DNA of 54,514 nt. It comes from Flavobacteriia bacterium. GTDB lineage: Bacteria > Bacteroidota > Bacteroidia > Flavobacteriales_D > Crocinitomicaceae. Position 1 is the stretch's first letter; every line of letters begins with the position of its first letter. A program made the translations under genes and the position numbers. The stretch spans positions 1-54,514 of the forward strand of contig CANGOF010000006.1 of assembly GCA_947455515.1 (NCBI GenBank), in the 5' to 3' direction. Of this stretch, positions 6,400 to 27,584 are shown piece by piece. Below the pieces are notes generated by a model that saw only the letters and a list, made by a program, of their open reading frames with translations, was not told the origin of the DNA and ran no database searches.

Positions 6400-6416
6400 T
6401 GCACGTGCTTTTATTT

Positions 6417-6447
6417 CAAATATACGTGATATCCTATTTATTTCAAA
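6417..6447 (-). promoter_or_regulatory. Bacteroidetes sigma-A promoter TTTG-N19-TATATTTG upstream of antitoxin
   Basis: Minus strand TTTG at 6447-6444, 19-nt spacer, TATATTTG (TAnnTTTG) at 6424-6417. Confidence 0.7.
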
Positions 6448-6460
6448 ATATTTTAACATA

Positions 6461-8483: not shown

Positions 8484-8647
8484 GGTGCTAAAATTAGTGA
8501 ATTTTTGGGTTTGCTAATTCTTTGATTTGTTGAAGCTAAAAAATATAATTGATACTCCGGATACTCATTTTATAGATCATTGTATTTCAAAAATGAAATT
8601 CATGTTTATTAATTATGTATTTTTAATTTGACATACTGACTGATAGT

Positions 8648-10606
8648 ATGTTTACAAAAATAAAGAATGAGTTTATGATTAAATTTTTATTACTTACATT
8701 AAGTTTCGTTTTTAGCGTTTCCTTTCTGTTTTCTCAAAAAAGCATCGTCAAAAGTGTTTATTTTGAAACAAATCAAAGTGCTTTATCAGAGCATAATAAA
8801 AAAGTTATTAAAAATGAATATAAATTTTATGCCAAACATAATTTATATAAAGTAGAAATTCAGGGTTTTACGGATTCTATCGGTTCAAAAAAATACAACC
8901 ATGAACTTTCCATAAAACGAGCATATAGTGTTCGGAAACAATTGGCTCATTGTAGTTTAGATACGAATTTAATCACTTGTTTTTATAATGGAGAATTGAC
9001 CTCTGGGACGTATGTGAACTTTGACAAACAAGATTCTGTATTAGGGAAAAATAGAAGGGTAGATATCAAGTTTTATTATAAACCGGAAATAGTAATTGAC
9101 AAATTATTTAAACTTTTAAAAACCGAAAGTGAAGTTTTTGAAATTGATCCGACAAAAGATACGATACTTCAAACCAGTCAAAATAAATTTTTCGTTTTCC
9201 GCTCAAATTCATTTAAAACTAATAGTTCCAGTAAAGTAACTTTAAGCATACGAGATTTGTCTTCTCGAAGCAATATGATTCTGAATAACGTGAGTACTAT
9301 GTCGAATGGAAAAGTATTAGAGTCTGGTGGAATGGTGGAAATATCCGCAACGCAAGATGGGGAAAAACTATCGAACAAATTAAATAAACCATTGGATTTT
9401 ATTATTCCTACTCAGAAATTCATTGATAGCATGCAACTTTTTACTGGATCTCATGATAGTATTCACGGCAATGACTGGGACCGATCTAACCCATCAAACA
9501 TGGTTGCTAGAGGGTTTAGACCTGATCCTGCATATAATTCATTTGAGGCTTATTTGTCAAAAATGAATTACTGTGGTTTCGATTGTAGATTACCATATAT
9601 TAAAGATTTGAATCTATTTCCTCAACCGTTTGCTTATTTCGATACATTAGCGAAAATCAATGGGGATTCAATGATACTTTACAAAAGTTATAGAGTATTT
9701 GAAGGATTACGTGCATTGTCTAAATTTCAAGTCAAGAAAAAAGAAAAATATTTATCGGTTGACACATTGGCATTTTTAATTCAATATGCTCAAAATGAAA
9801 ATTTTTTTAATAAATCATCTTTTTTCCAAAATTTGAATCGTAAAGTAAAGTTTAAATATTACAACCTACTAAACAAAGATTCGTTGTTATTCATAGAAAA
9901 ATTTGAGCATAAATTATCCTCCAAAACAAAGAAGAAGTTTATGAAAAATTTTACTGGATTCCTAGGAATGAAAAAAAGATATGAGTCGAACATAGGATTA
10001 ATAAAATCACATGAAAAAGATAAAGAATTTTATGATATAAATTATCAAAAGTACCTTTCATGTACTACCTTAGATAGCTTATGCAGATTGTCCAAACAAT
10101 ACAAATCAGCAGATAGTTTGTACAGAGTTGCATTAAGAGAAAAATGGGTAAAAGACAGTACGGACTATCGATTACGATGGATAAAAGACAGTACCCAAAA
10201 AAGTATTTTATTTAAAAATATTTTAAAGGACAATCCTGGTGTAGAAAACACACAGTATTTCTTGCAGTCCAACGAAATGGGGTTTGTGAATTGTGATTAT
10301 TTCGCAAGTTTTGAAGGGCAAAAAACACACTTAGAACTCACTCCTATCGATGGAAATTCGGATTTGAAATTGATTTTTGTCAATCGTAAAATTGTAATGA
10401 CTCCTTATATGCAAAATGATAAATATATATTTCTAAATATACCAATTGGTGAGGAGGTCATGGTCGTAGTTTTAAATTACGAATTTGAGCAACCGAGTTA
10501 TTTCATCAAAAAAATGACTGTTGAAAAATTGAAGGAACCAATTGAAATTATATTAAAAAAATGTTCGGTCGATGAACTCAAAAAAGAAGTGAAGAAATTG
10601 GATTGA
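8648..10606 (+). CDS. Secreted protein with N-terminal OmpA-like peptidoglycan-binding domain and long unassigned C-terminus
   Basis: ORF 652 aa; signal peptide, then VYFETNQSALSEHNKKVI...IQGFTDSIGSKKYNHELSIKRAYSVRKQL...LGKNRRVDIKF. Confidence 0.75.
   Translation: MFTKIKNEFMIKFLLLTLSFVFSVSFLFSQKSIVKSVYFETNQSALSEHNKKVIKNEYKFYAKHNLYKVEIQGFTDSIGSKKYNHELSIKRAYSVRKQLAHCSLDTNLITCFYNGELTSGTYVNFDKQDSVLGKNRRVDIKFYYKPEIVIDKLFKLLKTESEVFEIDPTKDTILQTSQNKFFVFRSNSFKTNSSSKVTLSIRDLSSRSNMILNNVSTMSNGKVLESGGMVEISATQDGEKLSNKLNKPLDFIIPTQKFIDSMQLFTGSHDSIHGNDWDRSNPSNMVARGFRPDPAYNSFEAYLSKMNYCGFDCRLPYIKDLNLFPQPFAYFDTLAKINGDSMILYKSYRVFEGLRALSKFQVKKKEKYLSVDTLAFLIQYAQNENFFNKSSFFQNLNRKVKFKYYNLLNKDSLLFIEKFEHKLSSKTKKKFMKNFTGFLGMKKRYESNIGLIKSHEKDKEFYDINYQKYLSCTTLDSLCRLSKQYKSADSLYRVALREKWVKDSTDYRLRWIKDSTQKSILFKNILKDNPGVENTQYFLQSNEMGFVNCDYFASFEGQKTHLELTPIDGNSDLKLIFVNRKIVMTPYMQNDKYIFLNIPIGEEVMVVVLNYEFEQPSYFIKKMTVEKLKEPIEIILKKCSVDELKKEVKKLD
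10149..10194 (+). repeat. Short imperfect in-frame tandem repeat (33-bp period)
   Basis: taaaagacagtac at 10149-10161 and 10182-10194; encodes WVKDSTDYRLR-WIKDSTQ. Confidence 0.7.
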
Positions 10607-10712
10607 AAATTAAAGTAGTTTAACCAATGAAAACATTGATTTTATTTTTTTCTTTTTTAGAGGGCAGATACAAAAAAAATGAATTAACGAATTTATTTAA
10701 TAAGTTTTGAGA

Positions 10713-11597
10713 ATGAAATTTATTTTGGTTCTGTTATTCATTTTTCTAGTTAGCACTTCATTTTCTCAATCTTTAAATTTGTATTCTTTACGAATTTATA
10801 CCTTATCTGATAATCAGCAAATAGGATTTGTATCGTTATCAGATAAATACTTGATATATGAATATGGGGATCCGAATGAAGTTTTACCTGATGAGCCTAT
10901 TTATAATTATCAAATACCTTTGAACGGAATTTACAGAAAACGATTATTTGCAGGTACAAACATACAAGAAACAGATACGATGTTTTTATTTAATTACAAA
11001 ACAAATACATTGGTGAAAGTACCTGTCAGTAAACTAAAATCATTTGCTCGTTTGAATGAATATGCAGATGAAGATTTTTTAAAGTGTCACCCAGAAAGTG
11101 ATTTATTTATGTTTGGTTTTGAGATTAATGAACAAGATGTCAAATCAATAGGACTTTCAGACGGTGTATTCATATATTTCGGAAATTTCAATCCTTTCAA
11201 AACCGAGAAGTTAAATCCTTTTGTATGGAAAAAAATAAAGGCCAAGGATTTTCCATTTTCTAAAATGGATACGACACAAAAATTCTATAGTGCTTTGAAA
11301 GAATTATGTTTTCATTATTATAAATCAGATTATTACCAGTATTATGTAGTGAATGATTTATATTCTGAATATGTATTGATATTCGATTTTCAAGGGAATA
11401 AAATCAATGAAATTTCTTTTCATTTTACTGAAAGTTGTCCATTGGCAGTAGTATCTGAGAATGTTTTATCCCAACAATATGTTGGATCCATTTTTAAAGA
11501 TAAGCCAGAGTTAATCATGGGTTTTGAAGATTGTAGCTTTGAGTGTTCTCATATCATTTTTACAAATCCATTGTTTGGAGAAATTGTTGTAAAATGA
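10713..11597 (+). CDS. Secreted hypothetical protein
   Basis: ORF 10707-11597; likely start ATG 10713, signal peptide MKFILVLLFIFLVSTSFSQ. Confidence 0.75.
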   Translation: MKFILVLLFIFLVSTSFSQSLNLYSLRIYTLSDNQQIGFVSLSDKYLIYEYGDPNEVLPDEPIYNYQIPLNGIYRKRLFAGTNIQETDTMFLFNYKTNTLVKVPVSKLKSFARLNEYADEDFLKCHPESDLFMFGFEINEQDVKSIGLSDGVFIYFGNFNPFKTEKLNPFVWKKIKAKDFPFSKMDTTQKFYSALKELCFHYYKSDYYQYYVVNDLYSEYVLIFDFQGNKINEISFHFTESCPLAVVSENVLSQQYVGSIFKDKPELIMGFEDCSFECSHIIFTNPLFGEIVVK

Positions 11598-11687
11598 GGT
11601 TTAGTTGTAAACATTTTGATTTAAATCTAATAAATCTTTAGCTTAGATATGTTTTAACGATTGTTCACGATAAATACTACAATAATT

Positions 11688-13409
11688 ATGAAATTTGCCC
11701 TTATTCTTTTTTGTTTGATTTTCTTTTCTTTAAATGCTTTTTCCCAAAATCAAGTATTAGTTCCCTTTCGCGTAGGTGATAAATTCGGTTTATCTGATTT
11801 AAAAGGACAACTGATTTATCCAGCAGAATATGACAATATTACAATCAAAAAGGGTGATCCAGTGGGTGTTTTTTATGCGGAAAAGGCGAACAAAACAACT
11901 TTTTTTTACAAGAATATAATCTTAATAAAAGATACAAAATATAATGTGTTTCAAGTTTTAGAAAACAAATGCGTATTAGCTAAAACAGGGTTGGAATATT
12001 TAGATATTAGTGACTTTAAAAATGAGACAGAATATAAGGCTGCAAAAAAGAGAACGAGGTATCTCTCAATTTTTAATTTGAAGGGTGAAAACTGTTACCC
12101 AGAAAATTTCAAAGAATTACATATCTTAGATACAGCTGGACAGAGTGATATTAATAAGTCATTATCAAGATACATCGCATTTATTTCGTTAAATTTTGAT
12201 GAAAAGACAAGTGTTTTTATATATGATTGTGATCTTCAGAAAATAACGGAATGGCTTATAAAAGATTACTTTTCATTTAAATTCACAGGTTCTAACAAAG
12301 ATTTTACAAGTCAAAAAACTGAAATTGATAAAGAAGAAAAATACACCTTGATTTTTGAGGGTAATAAATTTAAAATAAAACAATTGGATACTAAAAGTTC
12401 GGTTGGTTCACATCAATTCGGTTCTGCTAGTAACTCCGATAAAAGTTCTAAAAAATTGGATCGAGTAATTAATCCATTTGACGATTCATTTGAAGGTGGT
12501 ACTGCTGAGATTGCGAATAATTCTGATAAACCTCAACAGCGAAAAATAAAAAGCCTTTTTAAAATAAAAGAAGGAAGAATTTTTCAGTATATGTGCGAAT
12601 ATAAAAATGATACAATTATCAAGGAAATCAAGTTACCATTTTCAATCGATGATTTGAAGATTGAAAATAATTGTGATTTTGAAAATCAAGATACGAACAA
12701 CCTAATTAATTATGAGTTCCATAATCTAATTGTTTTCAAAACCAACAATAAGTATGGTGTTTTAATTTCGGATAAGATTCAAATTCAACCAATTTACGAT
12801 ACGATTTGTATGATTAAAACTGCTAATTTTAATGATAGTAAAATAAGTATTTGTTTTTTAGTAGGGTTAAAAAACAGTGGATCTAAAAATATGCGTTTCG
12901 GTACAATTGATATCAATTCGAAAACAATTATTCCTATTGTCTATGAACAAATTAATTATAATCGATTAGAGGCAAAAGATTCAAACGAAGATGAAATATA
13001 CAACAAAAGACATAAGGTTGTTAGATTTTGTAATACTACTTATAATAAGGAATGGCTTATAAAAAAAGATGGGAGATTTGGTTTTATATCACCAACAGAT
13101 AGTGTCATTTTAAAACCTGAATTTGATGAAATAACACAAAATGGAAGCGTATATTCTTCATTTTTCACCAATTTTAAAATAGTAAAAAAAGGAAATTTGT
13201 ACGGGGTTATGTATTTTACACACAATGGTTTAAAAATTGTCGAACCGATATTTCCACACAAACCTGAATATATAATTGAAAATTATCAAGGATTAAAAGG
13301 AAAAACGTTGTTTAGGTTAGTGGATGATACAGTTGATTCAGATAATTTTATGGATAAATTCTTTTGTTTTGCGGAAGAAAATGGACATTTATATTACAGA
13401 GAGAAGTAA
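11688..13409 (+). CDS. Secreted WG-repeat-containing protein (paralog of 23178-24833)
   Basis: ORF 11661-13409, likely start ATG 11688; VPFRVGDKFGLSDLKGQLIYPAEYD, NKYGVLISDKIQIQPIYDTI, MRFGTIDINSKTIIPIVYEQI, KDGRFGFISPTDSVILKPEFDEI. Confidence 0.85.
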   Translation: MKFALILFCLIFFSLNAFSQNQVLVPFRVGDKFGLSDLKGQLIYPAEYDNITIKKGDPVGVFYAEKANKTTFFYKNIILIKDTKYNVFQVLENKCVLAKTGLEYLDISDFKNETEYKAAKKRTRYLSIFNLKGENCYPENFKELHILDTAGQSDINKSLSRYIAFISLNFDEKTSVFIYDCDLQKITEWLIKDYFSFKFTGSNKDFTSQKTEIDKEEKYTLIFEGNKFKIKQLDTKSSVGSHQFGSASNSDKSSKKLDRVINPFDDSFEGGTAEIANNSDKPQQRKIKSLFKIKEGRIFQYMCEYKNDTIIKEIKLPFSIDDLKIENNCDFENQDTNNLINYEFHNLIVFKTNNKYGVLISDKIQIQPIYDTICMIKTANFNDSKISICFLVGLKNSGSKNMRFGTIDINSKTIIPIVYEQINYNRLEAKDSNEDEIYNKRHKVVRFCNTTYNKEWLIKKDGRFGFISPTDSVILKPEFDEITQNGSVYSSFFTNFKIVKKGNLYGVMYFTHNGLKIVEPIFPHKPEYIIENYQGLKGKTLFRLVDDTVDSDNFMDKFFCFAEENGHLYYREK

Positions 13410-13596
13410 TTAAACATAAGAAAGTTTTTACCCGCTGTGCTGGATTTGTTACCCGCTTTAGCAAAACCTTTTCAAACACGAGTATATCTGAATTGAAAGT
13501 TTGAAAAAGCTCCATCACTTTCCTCTTTTCATTTTCTTCTCAACTAACATACTAAATCTTATTTTATTACGTATTTTTAGTATAATAGAATTTTTA

Positions 13597-15207
13597 ATGA
13601 GAATATTGCGCTTTAAATTATATTCATATCGCCCATTTTTTGTAGTTATCATTTATTTAATGGTAAACAATTATATTTTCTCTCAAAATCAAACATTTAA
13701 TTATCAGTCAATATATTATGAAGACCCATTTAGGTATAATGCAAAAAAAATAGAATTAGATCCGGAATTAATATTCTTCCTTAATAAGGAAAATATAAAA
13801 AGTTTTTCTTTCAAGAATAATATTTCAAAAAACACGTATATAAATACCAATATAGATGAATACCGAATTGAACATTTACAGTACTTAGATAAAGAAGATT
13901 CGGCTAGAGATTTTCCATTAAATAAATACACTAGATTTGATTCTATTTTAGTAAAATTTCATCCAAATACATATTCTTTAAAAGAAATTCAAAAGTATTA
14001 TGTTAAAAATTATGATTTAGTAAAATGGGATACTATTACTGTTTTTTCTGAGTCTATATTTCGTGATTTTAAACAAGATGACTATACTGTTGCTGGCTTT
14101 GTGCATTTAAAGAGTACGTATAAAACGTTAGAAAATGATTTTACTGGTCAATATGCGAAATATCAATTTTATCAAGATTCAATTTTATATTTTGAATATT
14201 TAACATTGAGAGGTGGGTCTGAATTTGGAAGAGGCAAAGGTAGGCCATTAATGGATAAATTAGGAAATAAAGAATTATTTTATCATTTCGTATTAGATTC
14301 ATTAGGATGGTTAAAAAAAAGTTATACTCTTTACAATGAAAGACATGATGGTGTTTTGGAAAATTTCTATTATTATTTCAATGAAAATTCATTAGTCACA
14401 AAAAAAGTAGAATTTGCTGCTATTGCTCAAGCTGATGATTTTAGTTTACACACTAATAGTGATAAAAATATTTTTTTAAAAAGTACTGTTACTAACAAAA
14501 GTTTAATTGATTCATCTAGAATTAGTGTGCATAATAAATCTTTTAAGATTAGACTTTTAAATTTTAATGAATCTTCAGACTTACATCTAGATTTCAATTC
14601 ACATAAAGAAGATAAACTTTTTTATTTGAATTTGAATTCAGCAAAAGAAAAATTAGGCTGTGATGAAATTCATTTTAATTTTTTACCAATTGAAAGTAAT
14701 GGTAAAATTTTCACAATAAAAAACATAACACCTGAATTTTTAGATAAATATAAATTAGTATTCAAAGACACGTTTTTTTATAGGATAGAAAATAAGTTCA
14801 TGATAGAAGAAAATGACTTAAATGTAAAAAATGCACCTAAAACTATTTGGCTTTCAGAATCTAAAGATGATAAAGAATTGATTTTTAATTTATCTGCAAA
14901 AATATTCTATAATGAATTAGGGTATCCTATATCGTTTTATTACAAAGATTATCGTTTGAATAGATGGAGAAAAGAAGAATATACTTATGAAGGAGCTTTT
15001 TTATCATCAGTTAAATACTATACTTCACGATTTGGTTTTTCTGTAGAATCAACCCCAGAAAAGGCATTCTATAAACTTGATGAAATAAATGATTTTAAAC
15101 TTTCAAATCGTATTCAACAAATAAGTAATACAAAATTTAAGATTTTACCAAGCAAATACTATAAAAATGGCTTGGCTGGTGAAATTGAAGTAGAATTTTG
15201 GAAGTAG
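13597..15207 (+). CDS. Secreted hypothetical protein
   Basis: ORF 13501-15207; likely start ATG 13597 (MRILRFKLYSYRPFFVVIIYLMVNNYIFSQNQ). Confidence 0.7.
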   Translation: MRILRFKLYSYRPFFVVIIYLMVNNYIFSQNQTFNYQSIYYEDPFRYNAKKIELDPELIFFLNKENIKSFSFKNNISKNTYINTNIDEYRIEHLQYLDKEDSARDFPLNKYTRFDSILVKFHPNTYSLKEIQKYYVKNYDLVKWDTITVFSESIFRDFKQDDYTVAGFVHLKSTYKTLENDFTGQYAKYQFYQDSILYFEYLTLRGGSEFGRGKGRPLMDKLGNKELFYHFVLDSLGWLKKSYTLYNERHDGVLENFYYYFNENSLVTKKVEFAAIAQADDFSLHTNSDKNIFLKSTVTNKSLIDSSRISVHNKSFKIRLLNFNESSDLHLDFNSHKEDKLFYLNLNSAKEKLGCDEIHFNFLPIESNGKIFTIKNITPEFLDKYKLVFKDTFFYRIENKFMIEENDLNVKNAPKTIWLSESKDDKELIFNLSAKIFYNELGYPISFYYKDYRLNRWRKEEYTYEGAFLSSVKYYTSRFGFSVESTPEKAFYKLDEINDFKLSNRIQQISNTKFKILPSKYYKNGLAGEIEVEFWK

Positions 15208-15216
15208 TTTCAGATT

Positions 15217-16113
15217 ATGAAAATAAACAAGTTTACATATCTTACTTATTTTGTTTTCCTTTTTAGTTTAAAAGCATTAGGACAGCCGATTAAGAATGAT
15301 CATTCTTTAGATACTTTAAATTTTAAGCGTTGTTGTCATAATTGTAACGAAATAGATTATTGTGTTTTAGATTCTGTTTTTAAAAATCGAGATTTGCATT
15401 TTTCATATAGTCAGGAGCAAGATGAAGACAATTATATAAAAACTCGAAAATTAAGTTGGGTTTTACGAAAAGGATTGAAAAAGAAATTCTCACTTTATGA
15501 TTATGTCAATACTCATTATTATCACAGAGTAAAGAATCAAAAAATTCAAGAACTACACACTAAAAAAGCATCTTTAGATACTTTAATCGTTTGGAATGGC
15601 ATTTCTGACGAATATTGTTTTTTGGATTCAACCAAACATCATTGTTTAATTGATTTTCAACTAAATTATCTTCATTCAAACAAAATGAGTTATAAATCTC
15701 AAATGAATGCGTACCACAAAAAAATGTTTGAGAAAAAATTTCAAGAAGTAAAAGTTCTCATCTTTAATAATCCTGTTGGATGTTGTAGTGATACAATCTA
15801 TGATACCACAAACCTTTTTTTATACCATTTTCCTTTTAATAAATTTACCGCTTTAGAAACTATTGTCCTTACGGGGAATGATGCTGATATTATTATCGAT
15901 TTACCTTACACAAATTATCCATCTTCACTAAAATCAATAAAAGGATATAGTCTTCACAATAAAATACTTTTTGAAAAAAACGTAAATAAACATTTACCTA
16001 ATCTAAAATTATTTTTTGGTTACCTGAACGATTTTAGTGAAAACGAAATGTATTATTATCCTGATGGAGAAAATCTAAATTATTTTATTTACAAATTTAA
16101 ATTGCATAAATGA
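15217..16113 (+). CDS. Secreted hypothetical protein, weak LRR-like C-terminal half
   Basis: ORF 298 aa; signal peptide MKINKFTYLTYFVFLFSLKALGQ; NKFTALETIVLTGNDADIIIDLP...SLKSIKGYSL. Confidence 0.7.
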   Translation: MKINKFTYLTYFVFLFSLKALGQPIKNDHSLDTLNFKRCCHNCNEIDYCVLDSVFKNRDLHFSYSQEQDEDNYIKTRKLSWVLRKGLKKKFSLYDYVNTHYYHRVKNQKIQELHTKKASLDTLIVWNGISDEYCFLDSTKHHCLIDFQLNYLHSNKMSYKSQMNAYHKKMFEKKFQEVKVLIFNNPVGCCSDTIYDTTNLFLYHFPFNKFTALETIVLTGNDADIIIDLPYTNYPSSLKSIKGYSLHNKILFEKNVNKHLPNLKLFFGYLNDFSENEMYYYPDGENLNYFIYKFKLHK

Positions 16114-17030
16114 GACATATTTTATTCATTTTATTGACCTTATCATCAGGGATATCAATCTCCCAAACCTATTTGATTTTTCACAAAAGTCATAGTGGGA
16201 GTAAAGTCGCGTTCGACTACCTTAGGAACCATGGGTTGTTAGATAATACTTCTTGTGGAGAAGGGCTTTCATACGAAGATATCGATCGTATTGTCAAATT
16301 TGATTCGGTGAAAGTAATTGGTGCGAATCAGGTGGTTGTTTTTGGTCGCGATAAATACAAAGATCAAATTAGTGATACGAATTATATCGAAAATATTCAT
16401 ATGTATGAGTCTGAAAATGATCTTAAGAAAAAAATAAAAAACAATTATGGTGCTTCTGTAAATGATAAAACTAAATTTATAAAAGGGGAGAATCAACCAA
16501 TTCCTTATATAAATGAAAACATGATTCCAGCGTATTTGGGAGGTCGACATTTGACTCAACTTCAAACGTTACTTTCTGAAGATAGTGTTCGATTAGTATC
16601 CTTAACAAATACGACCGATATTCCGATTGATTTTCATGTGTATTTGAATAGTAAGATTACAAATTATCATGTTCTTTTAAAGCCAAACGAATCCAAAAGG
16701 ATAACCATGAAATTGTTTCAAGGAATAGAAAATAGAATGAGTTTTTATTTGTTGAGCGATGATCAAAAATGCACTAAAATGATTTATGCTTCTTTAAAAG
16801 TAACGGATACAAAATCGAAATCGTTCGTAGAAACAAGATTTGATTTAGGTACATTTTCCTCCGTGCAATTATCCAAAAATAAAGTGGATAAAGGTTCCAA
16901 AATTCCCACGTACATTCAAACAAGCAATGATCCCGACAACAAAGGGTGGTGGTTCGCGGGAATTACGTTTCTTGCACTATTGATTACCGGGATTGCATTG
17001 CTGCGTGCACGTTTAAGATGGAATTTCTAA
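16110..17030 (+). CDS. Type I membrane protein: signal peptide, extracytoplasmic domain, C-terminal TM helix
   Basis: ORF 306 aa; MRHILFILLTLSSGISISQ ... GWWFAGITFLALLITGIALLRARLRWNF; 4-bp overlap with upstream CDS. Confidence 0.75.
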   Translation: MRHILFILLTLSSGISISQTYLIFHKSHSGSKVAFDYLRNHGLLDNTSCGEGLSYEDIDRIVKFDSVKVIGANQVVVFGRDKYKDQISDTNYIENIHMYESENDLKKKIKNNYGASVNDKTKFIKGENQPIPYINENMIPAYLGGRHLTQLQTLLSEDSVRLVSLTNTTDIPIDFHVYLNSKITNYHVLLKPNESKRITMKLFQGIENRMSFYLLSDDQKCTKMIYASLKVTDTKSKSFVETRFDLGTFSSVQLSKNKVDKGSKIPTYIQTSNDPDNKGWWFAGITFLALLITGIALLRARLRWNF

Positions 17031-17044
17031 ATGCGAGGTGTACC

Positions 17045-18121
17045 ATGCATGTAAAAGGCTATCTGAAAGACATACTTCTTTTGTTTTCATTCTTAGGAAT
17101 GCTCTTCATTCCTGTGGATTATGCATTGATTCCGTTCCAAAATAAAGTAGGATTGTTTTTTTGCGCTTCCTCGGATAAGCTTGAAATGTTTTATTTCATT
17201 GCTTCCTTGCTATTGTTTTCTTGTGTGTTTGCAGTTTTTATTCCTAAAACTAGCAAAGCGCAATTTCAATCCATGGTTTTTAGTCTTTTATATTGGTATT
17301 TATCTTTGCAGTTAATGCGTTACGGAGCGAATAAACTGTTTAAACATCAGTTTTATTTGCCAGAACCGAATACCTTATTTACGCGGGTTGGAAATTTAGA
17401 TCGAGACATTTTGTATTGGACTTCCATGGGAACTTCCTACGAATACAATGTGTTTATGGGGATCGTTGAAATTCTGCCTGCAGTATTGTTATTGTTTCCA
17501 CGTTTTCGTTTTGTTGGACTGTTAGTGTCGGTTGGGGTTTTTACCAACGTGTTAGCCGTAAATATTGGTTTTGATATCACCGTAAAATGTTTCTCAGGAT
17601 TTTTATTGTTTTTGAGTGTGTTAGGGTTGTTGCTTTATAAAGATAAAATCATGTTTCTTTTTGGATTTCAACCGAAAGAAATGGAGCTCCAGCAACTCAA
17701 AACTACAAAACACAACGCTTCCTTTCTAAAACGATTCATCTCCATATTTGCTGTGTTGTTTATTTTTGCAGAAACGCTTTATTCGTATGTTCAATCAGGT
17801 AATTTCAACGATGATAAAGCTCCACGACCATTTTTACACGGTGCTTATAAATCAATAGAACCAATTACTCATTCAAAGCAACTAGCATACGTTTTTATCC
17901 ACCGAAGAGGGTACCTTATTTTTCAAAACGCCTCTGAAAAACAAAGCGACTATCTCTTACAAGTGGTTCCTAAACAGCATCTTTTTATCCTCACTGATTA
18001 CAAACAACAAAAGAAAATAGTATCTTTTAGGTATGATTTAAAAAGGAAACGTTTGGTTTTGAAGGTAGGTAAGGGAAAAGTGATGGAGTTTGAGAGGGTG
18101 GAGATGGATAAACAATTTTAA
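17045..18121 (+). CDS. DoxX-like polytopic membrane protein
   Basis: ORF 16946-18121; likely start ATG 17045 (MHVKGYLKDILLLFSFLGMLFIP); multiple TM segments, MGIVEILPAVLLLFPRFRFVGLLV. Confidence 0.7.
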   Translation: MHVKGYLKDILLLFSFLGMLFIPVDYALIPFQNKVGLFFCASSDKLEMFYFIASLLLFSCVFAVFIPKTSKAQFQSMVFSLLYWYLSLQLMRYGANKLFKHQFYLPEPNTLFTRVGNLDRDILYWTSMGTSYEYNVFMGIVEILPAVLLLFPRFRFVGLLVSVGVFTNVLAVNIGFDITVKCFSGFLLFLSVLGLLLYKDKIMFLFGFQPKEMELQQLKTTKHNASFLKRFISIFAVLFIFAETLYSYVQSGNFNDDKAPRPFLHGAYKSIEPITHSKQLAYVFIHRRGYLIFQNASEKQSDYLLQVVPKQHLFILTDYKQQKKIVSFRYDLKRKRLVLKVGKGKVMEFERVEMDKQF

Positions 18122-18184
18122 CGATTCGCTTTCTGTAAAATAAATAGCATATCAACTCGTTATAAAATGAAATACTAGAATAGG

Positions 18185-19576
18185 ATGTATAAAATAATAT
18201 TGCTATTTGTACTATTTACAAGTAATTTTCATGCTCAAACTGATTTGTTGAGTTTGGAAGAATTAGAAAATAAACCAATATATAGTATTATTTACAATGA
18301 CACTAAAGGATTTATTCATGTTGATACATATCCAATATATAGCGAAAAATCTTTTGATTCAGTTTTTAGGTCAAATTTTAATAATTTCAATATTGTACAT
18401 GATGAGATTTATAGAGTTTCATTGACTGTTCAAATAGAAGGAATAAAAAACTTGGAAAAAGTTTTTCATTTACTGCTTGAAAATTTCCCAAATCTACAAG
18501 AGTTACATTTTGTTGGAATAATGAGTCAAATTCCAAGTAGTGTTTTTAAATTCAAAAAATTACAATATTTAGATTTAGATGTTGGTTCATGTGATAATTG
18601 TCAATTATACTTCAGTACAATTCCTAAAGAATTTAATCAACTAGTTCATTTGAAAAAGTTAAAATTAAGTAATTTGTCATGGTGTTTTATACCAAATCAC
18701 TTATTTAAAAGTGATAGCTTAAAAGAAGTATTTATTTCAATTCAAAATGAAACAGAGTTTCTTCCACCAGTTCCAGCTAATTGGTTAATAAAACAAAATA
18801 CGATAGATTACAGCTTAATTTACCCAGGAAATATGGATGTCTTATTTTCTATTAACTCTATTCAAACAAAAAGACTAATAGATTTAAAGAAATACGGGAG
18901 AATATATGATAATGAAGATAGTGTTTATTTTATTACTAAAAAAGAGTCGAAAAATCAATTGAAATGGTTCGATAAAAAAAATCAATTAATTATTCAAGGT
19001 GAAATAGATAATGATCAAAAACCGCATGGCACATGGAAGGTCTTTTATCCATCTGGTAAAATAAAAGAGATACGAAAATACAAACATGGTGACGAAAGTG
19101 GTAAGTGGAAAATGTATAACGAATCAGGAAAATACATTTCAAAGTATCTTTTTAAGAAAAACAATATCACTTTTACTCATTATAGAAAATCTGGAATAAT
19201 TGAAAGTAAATTTTATGTTACGAGGGAATCTGATTCTCAAAACTATCAGCTAAACAAAATATTCAAAAGATCAAATTTTGATTGGTTTGAAAGCCGAATA
19301 ACTCGTTATCACTATCAAAATGATATTTTAACTCAAGAATTGAAATTAGAAAAGCTTCTTTTTATTCCAAATTCAATTACTAAAATAGACTATTCGAACA
19401 ATTATTCGACTTCTTATTATTTTGAAAAAAATCAATTAAAATCAATTAAAGTTTTTAAAAATGATTACTATTTAGATGAATCTTTACAAACAGGATATGG
19501 GTATGATTTTGATGAATCAGATAATACTTGGTACTATATTCAAGGAATAAATACAAAAATTAAAGTTCAAAAATAG
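18185..19576 (+). CDS. Secreted LRR-like + MORN-repeat protein (YwqK-antitoxin-like repeats)
   Basis: ORF 463 aa; FPNLQELHFVGIMSQIPSSVFKFKKLQYLDL; HGTWKVFYPSGKIKEIRKYKHGDESGKWKMYNESGK. Confidence 0.8.
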   Translation: MYKIILLFVLFTSNFHAQTDLLSLEELENKPIYSIIYNDTKGFIHVDTYPIYSEKSFDSVFRSNFNNFNIVHDEIYRVSLTVQIEGIKNLEKVFHLLLENFPNLQELHFVGIMSQIPSSVFKFKKLQYLDLDVGSCDNCQLYFSTIPKEFNQLVHLKKLKLSNLSWCFIPNHLFKSDSLKEVFISIQNETEFLPPVPANWLIKQNTIDYSLIYPGNMDVLFSINSIQTKRLIDLKKYGRIYDNEDSVYFITKKESKNQLKWFDKKNQLIIQGEIDNDQKPHGTWKVFYPSGKIKEIRKYKHGDESGKWKMYNESGKYISKYLFKKNNITFTHYRKSGIIESKFYVTRESDSQNYQLNKIFKRSNFDWFESRITRYHYQNDILTQELKLEKLLFIPNSITKIDYSNNYSTSYYFEKNQLKSIKVFKNDYYLDESLQTGYGYDFDESDNTWYYIQGINTKIKVQK

Positions 19577-19582
19577 TTTAGT

Positions 19583-20953
19583 ATGAAAATCAATTTTTAT
19601 CTCTTTTTCTTTTTAATGATTTTTGATAGCTATGCTCAAGATAATATTTCTATTATTAAATCATTTGAAAAAGATACACTTTTTTTTATTAATTATGGCG
19701 AAATTAATAGATATCAAATTCTAAATGTTAATGGAACAGGAAATAAATATGATATAAATTCTAAAAATTTAGTTTTTCCCAATGTTCGAAGATTAGTAAT
19801 TGAAAATGAGTTTGATAGTATTTATTCTAGTTCAAATTTTTTAACAGTTAATCAATTCCCCAATCTTGTTGAATTATATTTCATCGGGTATACCTTCGGA
19901 AAGTTACCTGAAGTTATATTTAAGTTTAAAAAACTTCAGGCTTTACATATTAATCCAAAATCTGTCTATTCAAAAAAACAGTTATTGAACACATACATTT
20001 TACCAAATGAACTTTTTGAATTAAACGATTTAAAGTATCTCGAAATTGGAAAAATGGATCAATTTATCTATTTACCAGAAAAAATTTCCATGTTGAAAAA
20101 TTTAGTCGAATTAAGAATTTTTGCAAATGAAGGGAATTTAAGTTGCTTACCTGTGAGTTTAATAAATCATCCAAGATTAAGAAAAGTAATAATTACGGGA
20201 GACACTACGAATCAATCATTTAACAGTTGGTATTTCAAAGACTTCCCTTTTTCAACAGATATTTTAAATTCAATTTCATCAAATCATCTAAATTTTTCGT
20301 ATTCATCAAGTTTCAAAAATGAACCATTTATAAAAAGTGGAAATGCAATTAATTTGAAAAAGAATTTGACAGGAGAATTTACGCAGAGAGCAAATAACGG
20401 TAATTTAGTGATCACTGGTTTTTTTGATGAAAAGAACCTTCCAACAGGAGCATGGAAATTTTACCATACTAACAACAAAATTAGAGAAGTAAGATTTTAT
20501 AACCATGGAAAAGAAATTGGTGAGTGGGAAGTATATGACTCATTAGGTAAAACTATTGCACAATATTCTTTTAAAGATTCAAGTATTCATTTCAATTTTT
20601 ACCATTCAAACGGCATGAAAAAGGCTGAATTATATTTGAATAATAATTTATCAGACAGTATTTGGTCTATTTACGATGAAAAAGGATTAAAATTATCAAG
20701 TATCACTTATCGAAATAATAATGTGTTTCAAACTTCCAATTTGGATTCAATACCATTAAAAGTAAATAATGACTTTGTTATGACTAAGTATTATAATATC
20801 AAGACCTATAATAAAAATCGAAATTTAATTTTAGACAGTAAAATTTTATTAGATGGTAGATATATTTTTTGTAATGGTGAATTATTTTACCTAAATCCTA
20901 AATACGGATATTACGATTTTGAGAATAACAAATTTATTGTAAAGTCTAATTAG
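19583..20953 (+). CDS. Secreted LRR-like + MORN-repeat protein, tandem paralog of previous
   Basis: ORF 456 aa; FPNLVELYFIGYTFGKLPEVIFKFKKLQALHI; TGAWKFYHTNNKIREVRFYNHGKEIGEWEVYDSLGK. Confidence 0.8.
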   Translation: MKINFYLFFFLMIFDSYAQDNISIIKSFEKDTLFFINYGEINRYQILNVNGTGNKYDINSKNLVFPNVRRLVIENEFDSIYSSSNFLTVNQFPNLVELYFIGYTFGKLPEVIFKFKKLQALHINPKSVYSKKQLLNTYILPNELFELNDLKYLEIGKMDQFIYLPEKISMLKNLVELRIFANEGNLSCLPVSLINHPRLRKVIITGDTTNQSFNSWYFKDFPFSTDILNSISSNHLNFSYSSSFKNEPFIKSGNAINLKKNLTGEFTQRANNGNLVITGFFDEKNLPTGAWKFYHTNNKIREVRFYNHGKEIGEWEVYDSLGKTIAQYSFKDSSIHFNFYHSNGMKKAELYLNNNLSDSIWSIYDEKGLKLSSITYRNNNVFQTSNLDSIPLKVNNDFVMTKYYNIKTYNKNRNLILDSKILLDGRYIFCNGELFYLNPKYGYYDFENNKFIVKSN

Positions 20954-20995
20954 ATATCAAAATACCACTGTGCTTGATTTTATACCGTGATGAAA

Positions 20996-21159
20996 TAACG
21001 AAGTTAATCTTGTGCTAAAACAACTTTCTCGCCCTCAAACAAAAACATATCTTTACCATAAACACTAAACCAACGAAAAAGTCGTTTGATGTTAGTAAGT
21101 TATGTGTAGATTGAGTAATTTTAGTTTGATGGAAATTATTCGCAGGATTAACTTCGTTA
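20996..21159. repeat. Inverted repeat, 14-bp perfect arms
   Basis: taacgaagttaatc (20996-21009) and gattaacttcgtta (21146-21159). Confidence 0.8.
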
Positions 21160-21289
21160 CTGCTACGCGTTGCAAATACAGCGGAGCAGTTGATCCTTCT
21201 ACAATAGTTTGTAATGATTTTGTTGGTGAATTATCTCCAACAAATTTAGCCGTTGATATAAATAGAAATGAATACGAATATTTAAAAAG

Positions 21290-22861
21290 ATGGTAACGAA
21301 ACTTTTTTTCTTTTTACTATTGATTTGGGTCATGGATTTACATTCTCAAGTTCCTGATTTTGATATTGATACAACGAAAACATTGGTCTTTGAATATAAA
21401 ACATTACAGGATGGTAAAGCATTTGGCTATTGTGATGAATCAGACATAATTTCGAATGTGCATATCAGTTTTTTCGTCAACATGCATAATCACCATAAGA
21501 GTGTTTATTTTGATTCGCTGAAGAATGATTTTTATTTTTACAATACTCATCCTGAGTGTGATACATTGTATGATCATTCCGGGAGTGTGTTATACCCCCT
21601 CCCTTCAATTCACAGTATCCCCCGAGATCATAAATTTTACCTTAAAAATCAAAAAAATGTCATTTGGGAACTAACTGTTATCGATGATAAACAACGAAAA
21701 AGTAATTTAAGTAAGATGAAGATATTCAATCACTTAAGTACTAATAATTGTATCGGGATAAGATTAACACTTAAAAGAGTTGGTATAAATCCAACCTATT
21801 GTTCGAAAGTAGACATAAAAAAATGGCCCAATTATTCTCAATTGCTAAATAGTAAAATCTTAAAAGAGTTTAAAATAACAGGTTATTCAAGGGAATCCTT
21901 GAAAAGAGGTAGAAAGTATATCGAATTGATCAATGCTTTCAAACAACTTGAAATAGTTGATTATGATCCTTTATTAGATATTAAGAACTTTGAAAATATA
22001 AAAGTACTTAAGGAATATAATTATTATTTGTTTCCTCTTTTCATTTTTGATCATCGGATAGTTTTACATAGAGAATTGAAAATTGAAAAATTTAAGACGG
22101 AATGTTTACCTTATTTTCCAAATTATGCTGAAAATTATTTTCTTCTTAAAAATCTGTCTTTTACTCAAAATGAGCACCCTTATTATTTAATCGATAGTGT
22201 CATTCGTACTAAGAATCTAAATCATTTACCAGAAGATGTTGATTTCAAAATCACTTGGGGTGAAATAGACTCATTACTTATTATAAGTAAAGATTCAATT
22301 CCATTTGGAATCGGAAAAATCAGAAATAGGCAAATAGCTGGGCTTTGGGAAATTTGTTCGCTTGATTTTTCGAAGGATTTAAACAAGAAACTAATCATCA
22401 AATGTTACGAAATTAATTTTGATCATCCGGAGCAGATCATCTTTCCTCAAGATGGTTCTTGGGTATATTATTACGAGAATGGCCGTAAAGCAATAGAAGG
22501 GACATTTAAAAATGGAAAGAAAGAAGGCAATTGGTATTTTTATTATCCAGATGGAGAATTGGAAAAAAAAATATCCTTTCATAAGGATAAAGTAGGAGTA
22601 GTCATTTCTTATTTTAATGAAAGTGAAAAAAGAGTATACAATTCGAAAAAATATGGACTTGTTGTCGTTTTTATTGAAGATTCTAAGATTGTATATATGA
22701 GAGCCGAAAGAGGTTTCGATGTTAATAATGAATATCAGAAACTATGTTTTTATAGTATGAATCATGATCCAAAGAAGAATAAAGAATATCCTCTCAATTC
22801 ACGTAGAGCGAAGCGTTTTATTAATCACCAGCTAAAAAAACTACAAATCGAAACTATTTGA
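21290..22861 (+). CDS. Secreted protein with MORN repeats at C-terminus, divergent relative of the two LRR+MORN genes
   Basis: ORF 523 aa; signal peptide MVTKLFFFLLLIWVMDLHSQ; GSWVYYYENGRKAIEGTFKNGKKEGNWYFYYPDGELEKKISF. Confidence 0.78.
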   Translation: MVTKLFFFLLLIWVMDLHSQVPDFDIDTTKTLVFEYKTLQDGKAFGYCDESDIISNVHISFFVNMHNHHKSVYFDSLKNDFYFYNTHPECDTLYDHSGSVLYPLPSIHSIPRDHKFYLKNQKNVIWELTVIDDKQRKSNLSKMKIFNHLSTNNCIGIRLTLKRVGINPTYCSKVDIKKWPNYSQLLNSKILKEFKITGYSRESLKRGRKYIELINAFKQLEIVDYDPLLDIKNFENIKVLKEYNYYLFPLFIFDHRIVLHRELKIEKFKTECLPYFPNYAENYFLLKNLSFTQNEHPYYLIDSVIRTKNLNHLPEDVDFKITWGEIDSLLIISKDSIPFGIGKIRNRQIAGLWEICSLDFSKDLNKKLIIKCYEINFDHPEQIIFPQDGSWVYYYENGRKAIEGTFKNGKKEGNWYFYYPDGELEKKISFHKDKVGVVISYFNESEKRVYNSKKYGLVVVFIEDSKIVYMRAERGFDVNNEYQKLCFYSMNHDPKKNKEYPLNSRRAKRFINHQLKKLQIETI

Positions 22862-22913
22862 ATAATTAAAATTTGTTTACCATGTCTAACATATTTTACC
22901 CTCCGCTGAGCTG

Positions 22914-23046
22914 GATTTATAATCCTGCTCTAAAATCAATCAAATAAACATGTATTAAACTAAACCTATACTCAGCCAAAACAAGGTGTTAAAGTGTAGA
23001 TTTGGCTGAGTAATATTCTGACTAAAATTGATTTATAATCCTGCTC
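22914..23046 (+). repeat. Exact 17-nt direct repeat pair
   Basis: gatttataatcctgctc at 22914-22930 and 23030-23046. Confidence 0.85.
22969..23012. repeat. 12-bp perfect inverted repeat, 20-nt loop
   Basis: tactcagccaaa / tttggctgagta. Confidence 0.85.
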
Positions 23047-23177
23047 AACCAACACCCTTCCAACCAAATCGAAGTCTAACTTCCACACAAACCAACTAAT
23101 CAAAAATATCATTTAGGATTGTACAATTAATTCTAATTTACCTTTTTCTAATTAATTTAGAGGATAATATAAATAGT

Positions 23178-24833
23178 ATGACAAAGCCACATTTAACGTT
23201 TAGTGTTCGAAAATTTTCAATTCTTCTGTTAATTCTCATTCATTTTAGTAGTTTTTCTCAAAATGAAATTTTAGTTCCCTTTCGCGTAGGAGACAAATTC
23301 GGTTTGTCTGATTTAAAAGGAAAATTAGTTTATCCAGCTGAATTTGAATATTTCAAATCAAACGAGTTAGGTTCGTATGAGGCTAGTTTTGAGGGGATAA
23401 AAGAGGGCAGATCCACCTTTTTTTATAGGGGTAAAAAAATTGTGGAACGCACTAAAAACACAAAATATAAAGTAATAAGAGAAAGTTTTGTTACTGTTTA
23501 TGAGGAGAATAAAGGTTTTGAGATTTTTAATTTTAAAGGTGAACAAATAACGGATAAGTCCTATGTAGAAATGATATTTTGTGATAATCTCTTACAACGA
23601 AATTTCTATTATACATGCACTCCAATCATTTTTAAAGATCAAAACGATAAGCTTACCTTACAGATTTTTAACGCAAAAACTGAAAAAATCACAAAAACGT
23701 TTGTTGAAAATGTGTCTTCATTAAAATTGGATCCTTATGATAATTTATATAAAAATCGTTTTACCATTTTTGTTCAAGAGAATATAAATTCAAAAGAAGT
23801 CAAATTGGAGTTTGTATTTGATGGTGACTCGTTCGTGATTCTTGATCCTACTAATTATTTCAAAAAAAACACCCAGAATAATCCTAAAAAGGGGAAACCA
23901 ATCATTTTGGAAGAAAATGAAAATGGAAATATGGAAAATTATAATGAGTTTGGAGTTCAAGCTCCATTGGAAGCATATAGAGAGACGGATGAATACCAAG
24001 ATTACTCTAAAAGTGGTAGAATTTTAAAAAAAATAGATGGGTTATGTTTAACCATTTTTCAAGAAAACGATAAAACCTCGATAGAAAACGAGTTTGAATT
24101 ACCACAGAATTTGGACGCGCGTTCCTTTCAAAATGTTAATGTAAAATTAGTCATAAATAAGGTGAAATATTATTTGGATGATCTAGTACTCTATAAGTCG
24201 AATGGAAAATATGGAGTCGTTTTAACGAAGGAATATTACCTTTCACCTAAATATGATTCCATTCGTTTGCTAGTATTAAATAAAAATTCAAGTAACCCTA
24301 ACTATTATTTTCAAGTTGGAATAAAAGACAGTATTACCAATAAAATGAAATTTGGGTTGGTAAATTTGTCAGGAGGAACAATTTTTCCGATCGTTTATGA
24401 TGTATTTAGAAATGCGATTGACAATCAAACCGGGGGATATAAATTCTCACTTTCCTTGCCGAACAATGCAGAATTTATTGTCGCAAAAGAAGGGAAATAT
24501 GGTATTGTTTCATTGGATGAAGTAAAAGCACCTTTAATCTATGATGACATCTTTTATTTAGATTCTAAAAATTGTGTTTTAGTTAAATCTGGTTTGTATG
24601 GTATTTATTTTCAAGATAGAATGCTTGTGAATTTGAAAATGATAGAACCTGTTTTTACAAAGATTCCCTTCAATATCAATGTGAATGCTCAGTTACCAAT
24701 TATAGAGTTATTTGAGGCACAGAACACGACGAATGAATACAGTGACTTCTATAAACCAGATATTCTCAAAAGAACAGGTAATTTCTTCTGTTATGGAAAC
24801 GTAAATGGAATGATGTATTACAAGGAAAAGTAA
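23178..24833 (+). CDS. Secreted WG-repeat-containing protein (paralog of 11688-13409)
   Basis: ORF 551 aa; VPFRVGDKFGLSDLKGKLVYPAEFE, NGKYGVVLTKEYYLSPKYDSI, MKFGLVNLSGGTIFPIVYDVF, KEGKYGIVSLDEVKAPLIYDDI. Confidence 0.87.
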   Translation: MTKPHLTFSVRKFSILLLILIHFSSFSQNEILVPFRVGDKFGLSDLKGKLVYPAEFEYFKSNELGSYEASFEGIKEGRSTFFYRGKKIVERTKNTKYKVIRESFVTVYEENKGFEIFNFKGEQITDKSYVEMIFCDNLLQRNFYYTCTPIIFKDQNDKLTLQIFNAKTEKITKTFVENVSSLKLDPYDNLYKNRFTIFVQENINSKEVKLEFVFDGDSFVILDPTNYFKKNTQNNPKKGKPIILEENENGNMENYNEFGVQAPLEAYRETDEYQDYSKSGRILKKIDGLCLTIFQENDKTSIENEFELPQNLDARSFQNVNVKLVINKVKYYLDDLVLYKSNGKYGVVLTKEYYLSPKYDSIRLLVLNKNSSNPNYYFQVGIKDSITNKMKFGLVNLSGGTIFPIVYDVFRNAIDNQTGGYKFSLSLPNNAEFIVAKEGKYGIVSLDEVKAPLIYDDIFYLDSKNCVLVKSGLYGIYFQDRMLVNLKMIEPVFTKIPFNINVNAQLPIIELFEAQNTTNEYSDFYKPDILKRTGNFFCYGNVNGMMYYKEK

Positions 24834-24907
24834 TGCTTGATTCAGGATCATTTACCATTCTGATATTAGGTTTATAATGCGTATTTTTAGTTTACTATAT
24901 TATAGAT

Positions 24908-26524
24908 ATGAAAAATCTTCTTGTTCTACTATCCCTTCTTTGTTTTTTTAATGCAAATAGTGTTGCTCAATCTAAAAGTACAGGTTCAAAAAAACGAAGC
25001 ATTTCATCAAGTATCAAAGATTCAATAACAACAGAAAAGAAGAATAATACAACGAAGAGCATTTTAAATAGTTTTTACGATGACGAAGGGTATTTATTAG
25101 CATATGAAGATTTACCCAACTTGAAAGGTTATAATCCAAACAAACCTATATTAGAGAATGAAGAGGAAGCATTAAACTATATACTTTCAAATATTGACTT
25201 TGTTTGTAATTATAATCCAGGATTTTACAAAAGCGATATATTAAATTTTAAAATTAAAAATGGAAAAATCACTAATGTAGATCATGATAAAGCAACAATA
25301 TTTAAAGATTCTTTATTTTACAAAAAAATCAAATTGAATCAAAAGAGTTTACCCAATTTTTATATACCAATAGCTTATCTTTATTCTAAAAAATTATCTA
25401 CAAAACGAATTTCAACCTATCAATTGGAAATTTTACACACTAATAATAAACGATTTTACGATTCTATTCTACTTAACAAAGAAATAAAGAAAAATTTCAA
25501 AACAGGAAGATATCAAACTTTAACGTCTAAAGAGTTGAATTTGATTAATCGATTAAATCGAACATGCAAGACTGATATAAATCCAATTCATTGTATTATA
25601 GAACATAATGATTATCTCATTGATACAACAAAAATTGATAGACAAATAAAATATGGATGTTATAGTTTTGATGAAGATGAGTATCGTTTTAAAATCATAT
25701 TTAATTATGTAAATAATAATAAATTGCATTTAAACAACGGAAAACATTTTGAGTATAATGATATTGTTTTTTATAATGATTCCACTTTGCTAACCATTTC
25801 AAAAAGAACAGATTTTTTCAGGCAGAATCTTTCTTATTCTCCTATTATTATTCGTTCAAATAATTCAATTGTTTTTGATAAACAAGATACCATTCCAGGA
25901 AATTATTTAATTCAAAATCCATTATTAAAAGATAGTTTAATTTATATTCATAGTGAATTTCATCGGTATGAAAATCCATTTCAACTAATTAAAATTGAGT
26001 CGTATAAGAAAGTGAAAACATTTCGATTTGGTTTTTTTAAAAGGTCTTACTTATTGGAACTGAAAATAAAAGGAAGTTTTCCTAAAATGGTAGATTCAAC
26101 TATTTATCTATATGTTTCTAAAAAGGGTGAAAAAAGTATCGTGAAAAATAAAATTATCGATGTTTTTCAAGTTATGTCAAAGTCTGATTCCCTTAAGGTT
26201 AATTATTTTGTAATAAGATATAATCACAAGATAAATTACTTCTGTGATAGTGTAAATGTTCGTTTGTCAACAATTGGTATTCAGTACAATACTTTAATTC
26301 CAGATATATACAATCATTCAAAGAATCTAGAAGTTACACCAAGAAAAGCGAACTTAATTAGCAGGAAAATAGTTGGTTATATTTATTATAGACCAGTAAA
26401 TTTATATTATAAATCCATAAATTATCTAAAATACCAATGTAGGGTTGGTTTTAATGCAAAGCAAAATGACCCAACGGGTAAATACAAAGATCCGATTATT
26501 TATTATTTAGAAAAACGATTGTAA
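24908..26524 (+). CDS. Secreted hypothetical protein
   Basis: ORF 538 aa; signal peptide MKNLLVLLSLLCFFNANSVAQS. Confidence 0.72.
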   Translation: MKNLLVLLSLLCFFNANSVAQSKSTGSKKRSISSSIKDSITTEKKNNTTKSILNSFYDDEGYLLAYEDLPNLKGYNPNKPILENEEEALNYILSNIDFVCNYNPGFYKSDILNFKIKNGKITNVDHDKATIFKDSLFYKKIKLNQKSLPNFYIPIAYLYSKKLSTKRISTYQLEILHTNNKRFYDSILLNKEIKKNFKTGRYQTLTSKELNLINRLNRTCKTDINPIHCIIEHNDYLIDTTKIDRQIKYGCYSFDEDEYRFKIIFNYVNNNKLHLNNGKHFEYNDIVFYNDSTLLTISKRTDFFRQNLSYSPIIIRSNNSIVFDKQDTIPGNYLIQNPLLKDSLIYIHSEFHRYENPFQLIKIESYKKVKTFRFGFFKRSYLLELKIKGSFPKMVDSTIYLYVSKKGEKSIVKNKIIDVFQVMSKSDSLKVNYFVIRYNHKINYFCDSVNVRLSTIGIQYNTLIPDIYNHSKNLEVTPRKANLISRKIVGYIYYRPVNLYYKSINYLKYQCRVGFNAKQNDPTGKYKDPIIYYLEKRL

Positions 26525-26538
26525 AATTCAACACTTCT

Positions 26539-26566
26539 ATAATCCATAATTCATAATCCATAATTC
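26539..26566 (+). repeat. Perfect 2 x 14-bp tandem repeat upstream of holA
   Basis: ataatccataattc ataatccataattc. Confidence 0.85.
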
Positions 26567-26572
26567 TTTTCT

Positions 26573-26580
26573 TATCTTTG
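26573..26580 (+). promoter_or_regulatory. -7 box TATCTTTG, 4 nt before holA ATG
   Basis: Matches TAnnTTTG; ATG at 26585. Confidence 0.6.
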
Positions 26581-26584
26581 ATTC

Positions 26585-27583: not shown

Positions 27584-27584
27584 G

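Follow-up and report, generated by a model that had tools for sequence, protein, structure and literature searches.

What is the function of an 18-kb run of twelve genes on one strand, nearly all of which encode exported and mostly uncharacterised proteins? Such an array lies between an HsdR_N-like gene and holA in contig CANGOF010000006.1 of a Flavobacteriia bacterium (family Crocinitomicaceae, assembly GCA_947455515.1). The stretch analysed, positions 1 to 54,514 of this contig, is called the window below. The twelve successive plus-strand open reading frames (ORFs), named w01 to w12, occupy 8648-26524 in the ORF list. By inspection, 11 of the 12 products begin with a hydrophobic N-terminal segment that leads into a ...xSQ/AQ cleavage site typical of flavobacteria, the sole product without a signal peptide being w07, a polytopic, DoxX-like membrane protein. 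This confirms the gene count and the export signals given in a first, sequence-only reading of the window, which had also seen no toxin gene; no toxin domain was found in the array. We consider it probable that the locus is a hotspot holding an exported array of which at least three genes (w08, w09 and w10) are orphan copies of immunity-like genes, each derived from a fixed slot in another operon and protective against related bacteria.

The borders of the array are formed by two genes:

8028-8483, minus strand: HsdR_N-like gene, left border of the hotspot (PF13588, E 1.5e-33).
26585-27583, plus strand: holA, right border of the hotspot (PF06144, E 1.6e-15).

These matches, with rsmE and then DUF4159 on the plus strand beyond holA, agree with the flanks as first described. 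Both border genes were searched for in 59 genomes. In seven congeners they are divergent neighbours separated by a nearly empty interval, of 92 bp in G012 and of 70-95 bp in G004, G005, G007, G008, G009 and G011. Four genomes of the genus have an occupied interval, which measures 18.1 kb in the window genome (G000), 14.3 kb in G010 (a 'Flavobacteriia bacterium' metagenome-assembled genome, isolate Jr-11may16-207), 2.06 kb in G001, where it is filled by a single gene unrelated to the array, and 0.44 kb in G003; the content differs among G001, G010 and G000. The comparison of relatives revealed neither a conserved gene order nor genomes in which the two genes are never adjacent, and the expansion at a hotspot between divergent neighbours that the sequence-only reading had proposed is thereby borne out. 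The junction between HsdR_N and holA is a hotspot of insertion of the integrase-free kind: Pfam detected no integrase or transposase among the twelve genes, no recombinase ORF or domain is present in the window array or in that of G010, the window contains no tRNA and Rfam found no RNA element in the interval. In several order-level relatives, the holA-HsdR_N interval measures 0.8-0.9 kb and may contain a conserved gene; that of G040 is filled by a single complete ORF (L029:2575-3348), AMP nucleosidase-like by eye. The window genome is a fragmented draft, 86.5% complete, which could suggest that the array results from assembly chimerism of metagenome bins. We regard this as hardly credible, since in G000 as well as in G010 a single contig spans the entire island with its two flanks, and the two genomes share blocks of 89-94% DNA identity in the same order and orientation.

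The origin of one array gene could be traced directly. A search with w10 retrieved a 96% identical protein elsewhere in G010, where it is encoded in an operon of four genes on one strand: a 696-residue protein starting with MADFFFFTD..., an 893-residue protein, the w10 orthologue and a giant protein of 2113 residues. The corresponding features of the window are:

21290-22861, plus strand: w10, exported MORN protein, slot-type, with a 96% identical copy in the G010 operon.
21188-22904, plus strand: captured cassette in which w10 is flanked by the 3' end of the 893-residue protein gene and the 5' end of the giant gene; 98.3% DNA identity to G010:C5 over 1718 bp.
22903-22930, plus strand: REP-like (repetitive extragenic palindrome-like) hairpin repeat bordering the w10 cassette on the right, with a 9-bp stem including a mismatch.

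Of the neighbouring genes, the cassette retains the last 25 codons of the one for the 893-residue protein and 7-8 codons from the start of the giant gene, and junction alignments show that the identity to G010 ends abruptly on both sides. As w10 carries scraps of both of its G010 neighbours, it is a captured orphan cut from an operon of the giant type. On the right, the identity stops where the REP-like repeat begins. The pattern of this repeat occurs at 17 sites in 8 of the 59 genomes and at none in the reversed control. The repeat, CCGCTGAGCTGGATTTNTAATCCTGCTC, adjoins accessory islands in the genus, at sites including G000:C107:7178, G000:C53:1769 and 14 more in relatives, and a nearby ORF on C53 (L081:3056-3625) resembles by eye a REP-associated transposase. 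The motif is found near w10 and in two gaps of the G010 array, but also in unrelated islands. A cassette integron was considered as well and rejected, the inverted repeats at 20979 and 21143 not fitting the attC core consensus by eye.

The giant gene is present in 18 of 240 genomes of the family (loci L238:1330-14037 and L260:8603-16366 are examples). The operon comprises a MADFFFFTD-type protein, often a second variable protein, then a gene in what we call the slot, and finally the giant of about 2000 residues. Giants align over nearly their whole length. In an alignment coverage profile, 9 of 10 MADFF-type proteins share their first 300-400 residues and are hardly alignable beyond. With this conserved N-terminus of about 350 residues followed by a variable C-terminus, the operon is laid out like a polymorphic toxin system. 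The slot gene is exported in eight loci (G010, G005, G115, G090, G091, G101, G131 and G075), whereas the slot of G100 is occupied by other, leaderless genes. Where it is visible in congeners, the left neighbour of the slot encodes a variable protein. No relative of the giant was found in Pfam, NCBIfam, PHROG or the PDB, and no description of a giant/MORN operon turned up in a literature search. In three giant loci, another large protein (LQAAGSDGSDG...) is common downstream of the giant. Near its first operon, G010 has a second MADFF-type protein with a 969-residue variable partner and a small secreted protein, without a giant (L261:10270-14690).

Three further genes of the window resemble slot genes:

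33154-34512, minus strand: slot-type orphan located outside the array, encoding an exported LRR protein (LRR_14, E 1.8e-17).
18185-19576, plus strand: w08, exported LRR+MORN protein, slot-type (immunity-like), homologue L270:94-1446.
19583-20953, plus strand: w09, exported LRR+MORN protein, slot-type (immunity-like), homologue L270:94-1446.

In the G005 operon, the flanking genes are the same as in G010, while the 893-residue protein is swapped for an unrelated variable protein of 1035 residues and the slot encodes a secreted LRR protein. The gene at 33154-34512 is 98.1% identical in DNA to this G005 slot gene, its signal peptide being replaced. Since w10 matches the G010 slot and the 33154 gene that of G005, one window contains two independent orphans. 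The 1035-residue protein carries a peptidoglycan-binding domain (E 4e-8), which fits a periplasmic target. Both w08 and w09 are homologous to a secreted LRR+MORN protein of G115 (genus g9), L270:94-1446, encoded directly upstream of a giant-gene start (w09: 31.5% identity over 311 residues, E 3e-36; w08: E 5e-25); the giant frame of G115 is open for about 158 codons and the contig begins just before the slot gene, so that only the giant side of this slot is visible. Among the 49 ORFs of the window, w08, w09, w10 and the 33154 gene are the only ones to match slot proteins at E<1e-4; 173 control ORFs gave only weaker, MORN-type matches (best E 8e-10). Possible remnants of a giant start, of about 20 residues, follow secreted genes in other islands (L031:3992, L082:8745 and L086:9661), with E values of about 0.07-0.3 that make each of them weak alone.

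We infer from this organisation that the variable proteins are toxins and the slot genes encode their immunity proteins. Immunity is the most likely function of the slot genes, because their position, variability and export fit it and because the window genome, where the giant was not found, retains only slot genes. Copies lying beside a variable protein in another genome were found for w10 (the 893-residue protein of G010) and likewise for the 33154 gene (G005); the slot that matches w08 and w09 can be seen on its giant side only, and the other array genes gave no match. The immunity role put forward as a hypothesis in the sequence-only reading receives direct, if circumstantial, support beyond the reach of a reading of the letters, because w08, w09, w10 and the 33154 gene trace to slots next to variable proteins or the giant; the other array genes are tied to no toxin. 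With the exception of w06-w07, the rest of the array may nevertheless play the same role. The exported proteins would bind and neutralise incoming effectors in the periplasm and would thus protect against the weapons of related bacteria. A broader proposal, in which the giant operon is an undescribed, periplasm-acting polymorphic weapon of Bacteroidota and the array a store of periplasmic orphan immunity genes directed against it, whose members are renewed as new mature domains are joined to signal peptides already resident, is more tentative, and we give it somewhat less than an even chance.

The slot proteins might instead be exported accessory parts of the giant system, such as adaptors, receptors or surface display proteins, their orphan copies serving in recognition or as decoys rather than in immunity. 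Slot genes do sit between leaderless genes, their LRR and MORN repeats are typical binding scaffolds, and the database searches assigned no function to the giant. This explanation seems unlikely to us, as the slot protein changes along with the adjacent variable protein while the giant is conserved, which is the pattern of immunity, and as orphan copies are carried by a genome in which searches turned up no giant.

Several observations weigh against the immunity role that we favour. The lack of the giant in the window genome is provisional given the incompleteness of this draft. The source was not traced for 7 of the 10 array genes outside the w06-w07 pair: for w01-w05, w11 and w12, no homologue in a slot reached E<1e-4. 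Among the giant operons, the slot is empty in G021, G040, G133 and G169, where no exported slot gene is present, and it encodes a transmembrane protein in G024 and a 128-residue protein without signal peptide in G019. In G115 the giant frame is short, as noted above, and the gene upstream of the slot is off the contig; in G090, a truncated giant neighbours a protein of 1104 residues (L267) that is unalignable with the other MADFF proteins. The variable proteins scanned with Pfam showed no toxin domain. Delivery machinery was not identified either: neither array carrier, G000 or G010, has an Rhs core match, and VipB of the type VI secretion system (T6SS) was unmatched in 20 genomes, with a model that may miss the T6SS of Bacteroidota.

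The link to Rhs or T6SS toxins suggested in the sequence-only reading found no support. Immunity to the Rhs toxins of congeners was rejected, as the Rhs loci of G002, G006 and G008 gave only MORN-type matches to array proteins; it is by these repeats alone that Rhs-adjacent genes match the array. In L225:2332-2871 and L227:940-3180, LRR genes with an N-terminal hydrophobic stretch lie directly beside Rhs C-termini of congeners, an independent hint that exported LRR proteins may act as immunity proteins in the genus. Locus L221 (G006:C26) contains tandem Rhs C-terminal cassettes sharing the start NFAYNGMKLDNEVSGNGNSY, one of them with a Toxin-JAB1 match (E 3e-12) and several followed by a small gene with a signal peptide. 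A WG protein beside an effector in G169 was considered as a relative of w03 and w11 and is not claimed, its low match probability (11.5%) being insufficient. At 5744-6459 the window holds a VapBC-like toxin-antitoxin pair (PIN-type plus small antitoxin ORFs, by eye).

The content of the junction in relatives bears on two other explanations. According to the first, it is a general-purpose hotspot that gathers unrelated envelope and stress genes with no common function, co-orientation reflecting read-through into holA. The single gene of G001 at this site (L032:2709-4148, 479 residues, AlbA-like helicase type by eye), with its weak pAgo and Csa3 matches in PADLOC, the AAA_14/DUF4143 ATPase carried there by G010, the pair w06-w07 conserved across Bacteroidota and the OmpA-like w01 are what such a hotspot would accumulate. 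We nevertheless find it rather improbable: export is common to 11 of the 12 products, typical housekeeping envelope proteins are few, and the only array genes with a traceable source come from the same operon slot. According to the second, the locus would be a variable surface or periplasmic anti-phage defence system. Defence genes are often found in hotspots, and the G010 ATPase is the PADLOC candidate PDC-S01 (E 2e-108). On the other hand, the eight array proteins scanned have no PADLOC match except in the generic OmpA/MotB part of w01, and neither w10 nor the giant has a PHROG family, which leaves this explanation very improbable.

How the array may diversify can be read from the alternation of shared and replaced blocks between the window and G010 intervals. 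The remaining array genes are:

8648-10606, plus strand: w01, signal peptide, OmpA domain first and a long C-terminal part (PF00691, E 5e-12).
10707-11597, plus strand: w02, exported orphan of no family, with a 45% identical homologue in another G010 island.
11661-13409, plus strand: w03, exported WG-type protein (WG, E 4e-4, under the curated cut-off).
13501-15207, plus strand: w04, exported orphan whose signal-peptide region is common to a different G010 protein.
15217-16113, plus strand: w05, exported orphan with a 97% identical G010 counterpart.
16110-17030, plus strand: w06, signal peptide and one C-terminal transmembrane segment, member of the w06-w07 pair.
17045-18121, plus strand: w07, DoxX-like membrane protein with a C-terminal lipocalin-like barrel, member of the w06-w07 pair.
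23178-24833, plus strand: w11, exported WG-type protein (WG, E 1e-3, under the curated cut-off).
24908-26524, plus strand: w12, exported orphan, a mosaic of G008-type and G010-type copies.

Their length ranges with that of w08-w10 from 296 to 652 codons; w02-w04 have uncertain start codons, TTG in the ORF list, where internal ATGs fit better. Pfam found MORN_2 in w08, w09 and w10 and weak LRR in w08 and w09, and matched no family in w02, w04, w05, w06 and w12. The families first assigned by eye are thus upheld for OmpA and MORN and more weakly for LRR and WG, and the weak LRR proposed for w05 lacks Pfam support. The WG-type proteins w03 and w11 are distant paralogues (28% identity). A type IX secretion system C-terminal sorting domain was not matched by Pfam in any array protein. 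The GC content is mostly 25-28% in the array versus 33-37% in its flanks, the exception being w06-w07 at 34%. Promoter and terminator scans of the array were near the shuffled expectation and are given no weight.

Relative to the window, the G010 interval lacks a 4.9-kb block (8587-13456, w01-w03) and has a different body of w04; blocks 15212-18105 (w05-w07) and 23057-27600 (w11, w12 and holA) are common to both, and block 18106-23056 (w08-w10) is replaced. Part of the array content also occurs in other islands, such as the w02 homologue of G010. In a set of 150 family genomes, G010 alone holds a full-length close relative of w11, and w12 is confined to G000, G010 and G008. Nucleotides 76-600 of w12 are mostly 97-100% identical to the G008 copy, which lies at a different locus, and the remainder is mostly 93-100% identical to G010; this mosaicism is strong (maximum chi-square 285, 0 of 1000 permutations). 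In w04, the segment 13457-13670 is 94% identical to G010 and breaks off at the end of the signal peptide. Identity starts or ends at the signal-peptide cleavage region in three cases (w04 with G010, w12 with G008 and the 33154 gene with G005), a pattern suggesting that resident promoters and signal peptides are kept while the mature parts behind them are swapped. In such a process, genes would be captured with scraps of their neighbours and inserted by homologous recombination, and new mature parts would be spliced behind the signal peptides already in place. Small proteins without signal peptide that end in ...DFKExxxAWRDFL..PLNGS (L031:9206-10498; L086:5494-6289 and 16553-16987) are repeated within and between two G010 islands; those scanned have no Pfam match.

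The pair w06-w07 stands apart. Relatives of the DoxX-like w07 occur in at least 112 contigs across Bacteroidota (GTDB), and in 67 of the 77 loci with upstream room a secreted partner is encoded directly upstream. The mature N-terminus of this partner reads QTKxIAHKSHSG in relatives and QTxxIxxKSHSG in w06. The SHSG genes often occur as two in tandem (window 16110-18121; L107-L186). No Pfam or NCBIfam model covers the pair. The AlphaFold model of w07 (pLDDT 91) shows a helical bundle and a C-terminal barrel, which in the PDB is lipocalin-like, resembling for instance potempin E and BACUNI_03114 (probability 1.00 and E 0.02-0.2, with a target TM-score of about 0.6); the model of the SHSG protein is only moderate (pLDDT 77, pTM 0.48). 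Like DoxX proteins, w07 has a multi-helix membrane bundle, with weak DUF417 and RclC matches, but it adds the lipocalin-like barrel and the dedicated SHSG partner. Its normal GC content and wide distribution suggest that the pair is a separate conserved module riding along in the array, outside the immunity role.

Compared with described systems, the locus combines known and distinctive traits. Many integrase-free hotspots are known, and homologous recombination is frequent at their flanking core genes (PMC5635113). As in the hotspots of Oliveira et al. 2017 (PMC5635113), variable content lies between fixed core neighbours with signs of homologous recombination and no recognised mobile element; unlike in these, specific capture scars and signal-peptide-boundary swaps are visible. 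The rAID arrays of Bacteroidales (PMC12247911) are likewise co-oriented orphan immunity arrays whose cognates lie beside effectors in other strains. Their conserved intergenic motifs may have a counterpart in the REP-like motif, which flanks some genes but not all. In contrast to rAID (PMC12247911), however, the present array has no tyrosine recombinase at its head, its genes are longer than the about 100-300 codons of rAID genes, its products are exported and the cognate operon is not a recognised T6SS. Polyimmunity loci (Zhang et al. 2012, PMC3482391) also consist of tandem immunity-like genes of unrelated structure without intervening toxins, LRR proteins (Imm-LRR) included. The immunity proteins of that survey are nearly all cytoplasmic, whereas the present ones have signal peptides and are predicted to be periplasmic; the survey text has no MORN or WG term, and the present cognate operon has a conserved giant. 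On these grounds we provisionally file the array as a variant of orphan-immunity loci.

The orphan immunity arrays known so far are mainly those of gut Bacteroidales, with cytoplasmic immunity proteins. If our reading is true, a periplasmic orphan immunity array in a freshwater lineage would extend this phenomenon. With a capture scar that ties one orphan, at 98% DNA identity, to the operon it came from, it would also provide concrete protein pairs for study and would point to a large system of several genes that no family model was found to cover. Finally, swapping at the signal-peptide boundary suggests a simple route by which exported repertoires may diversify.

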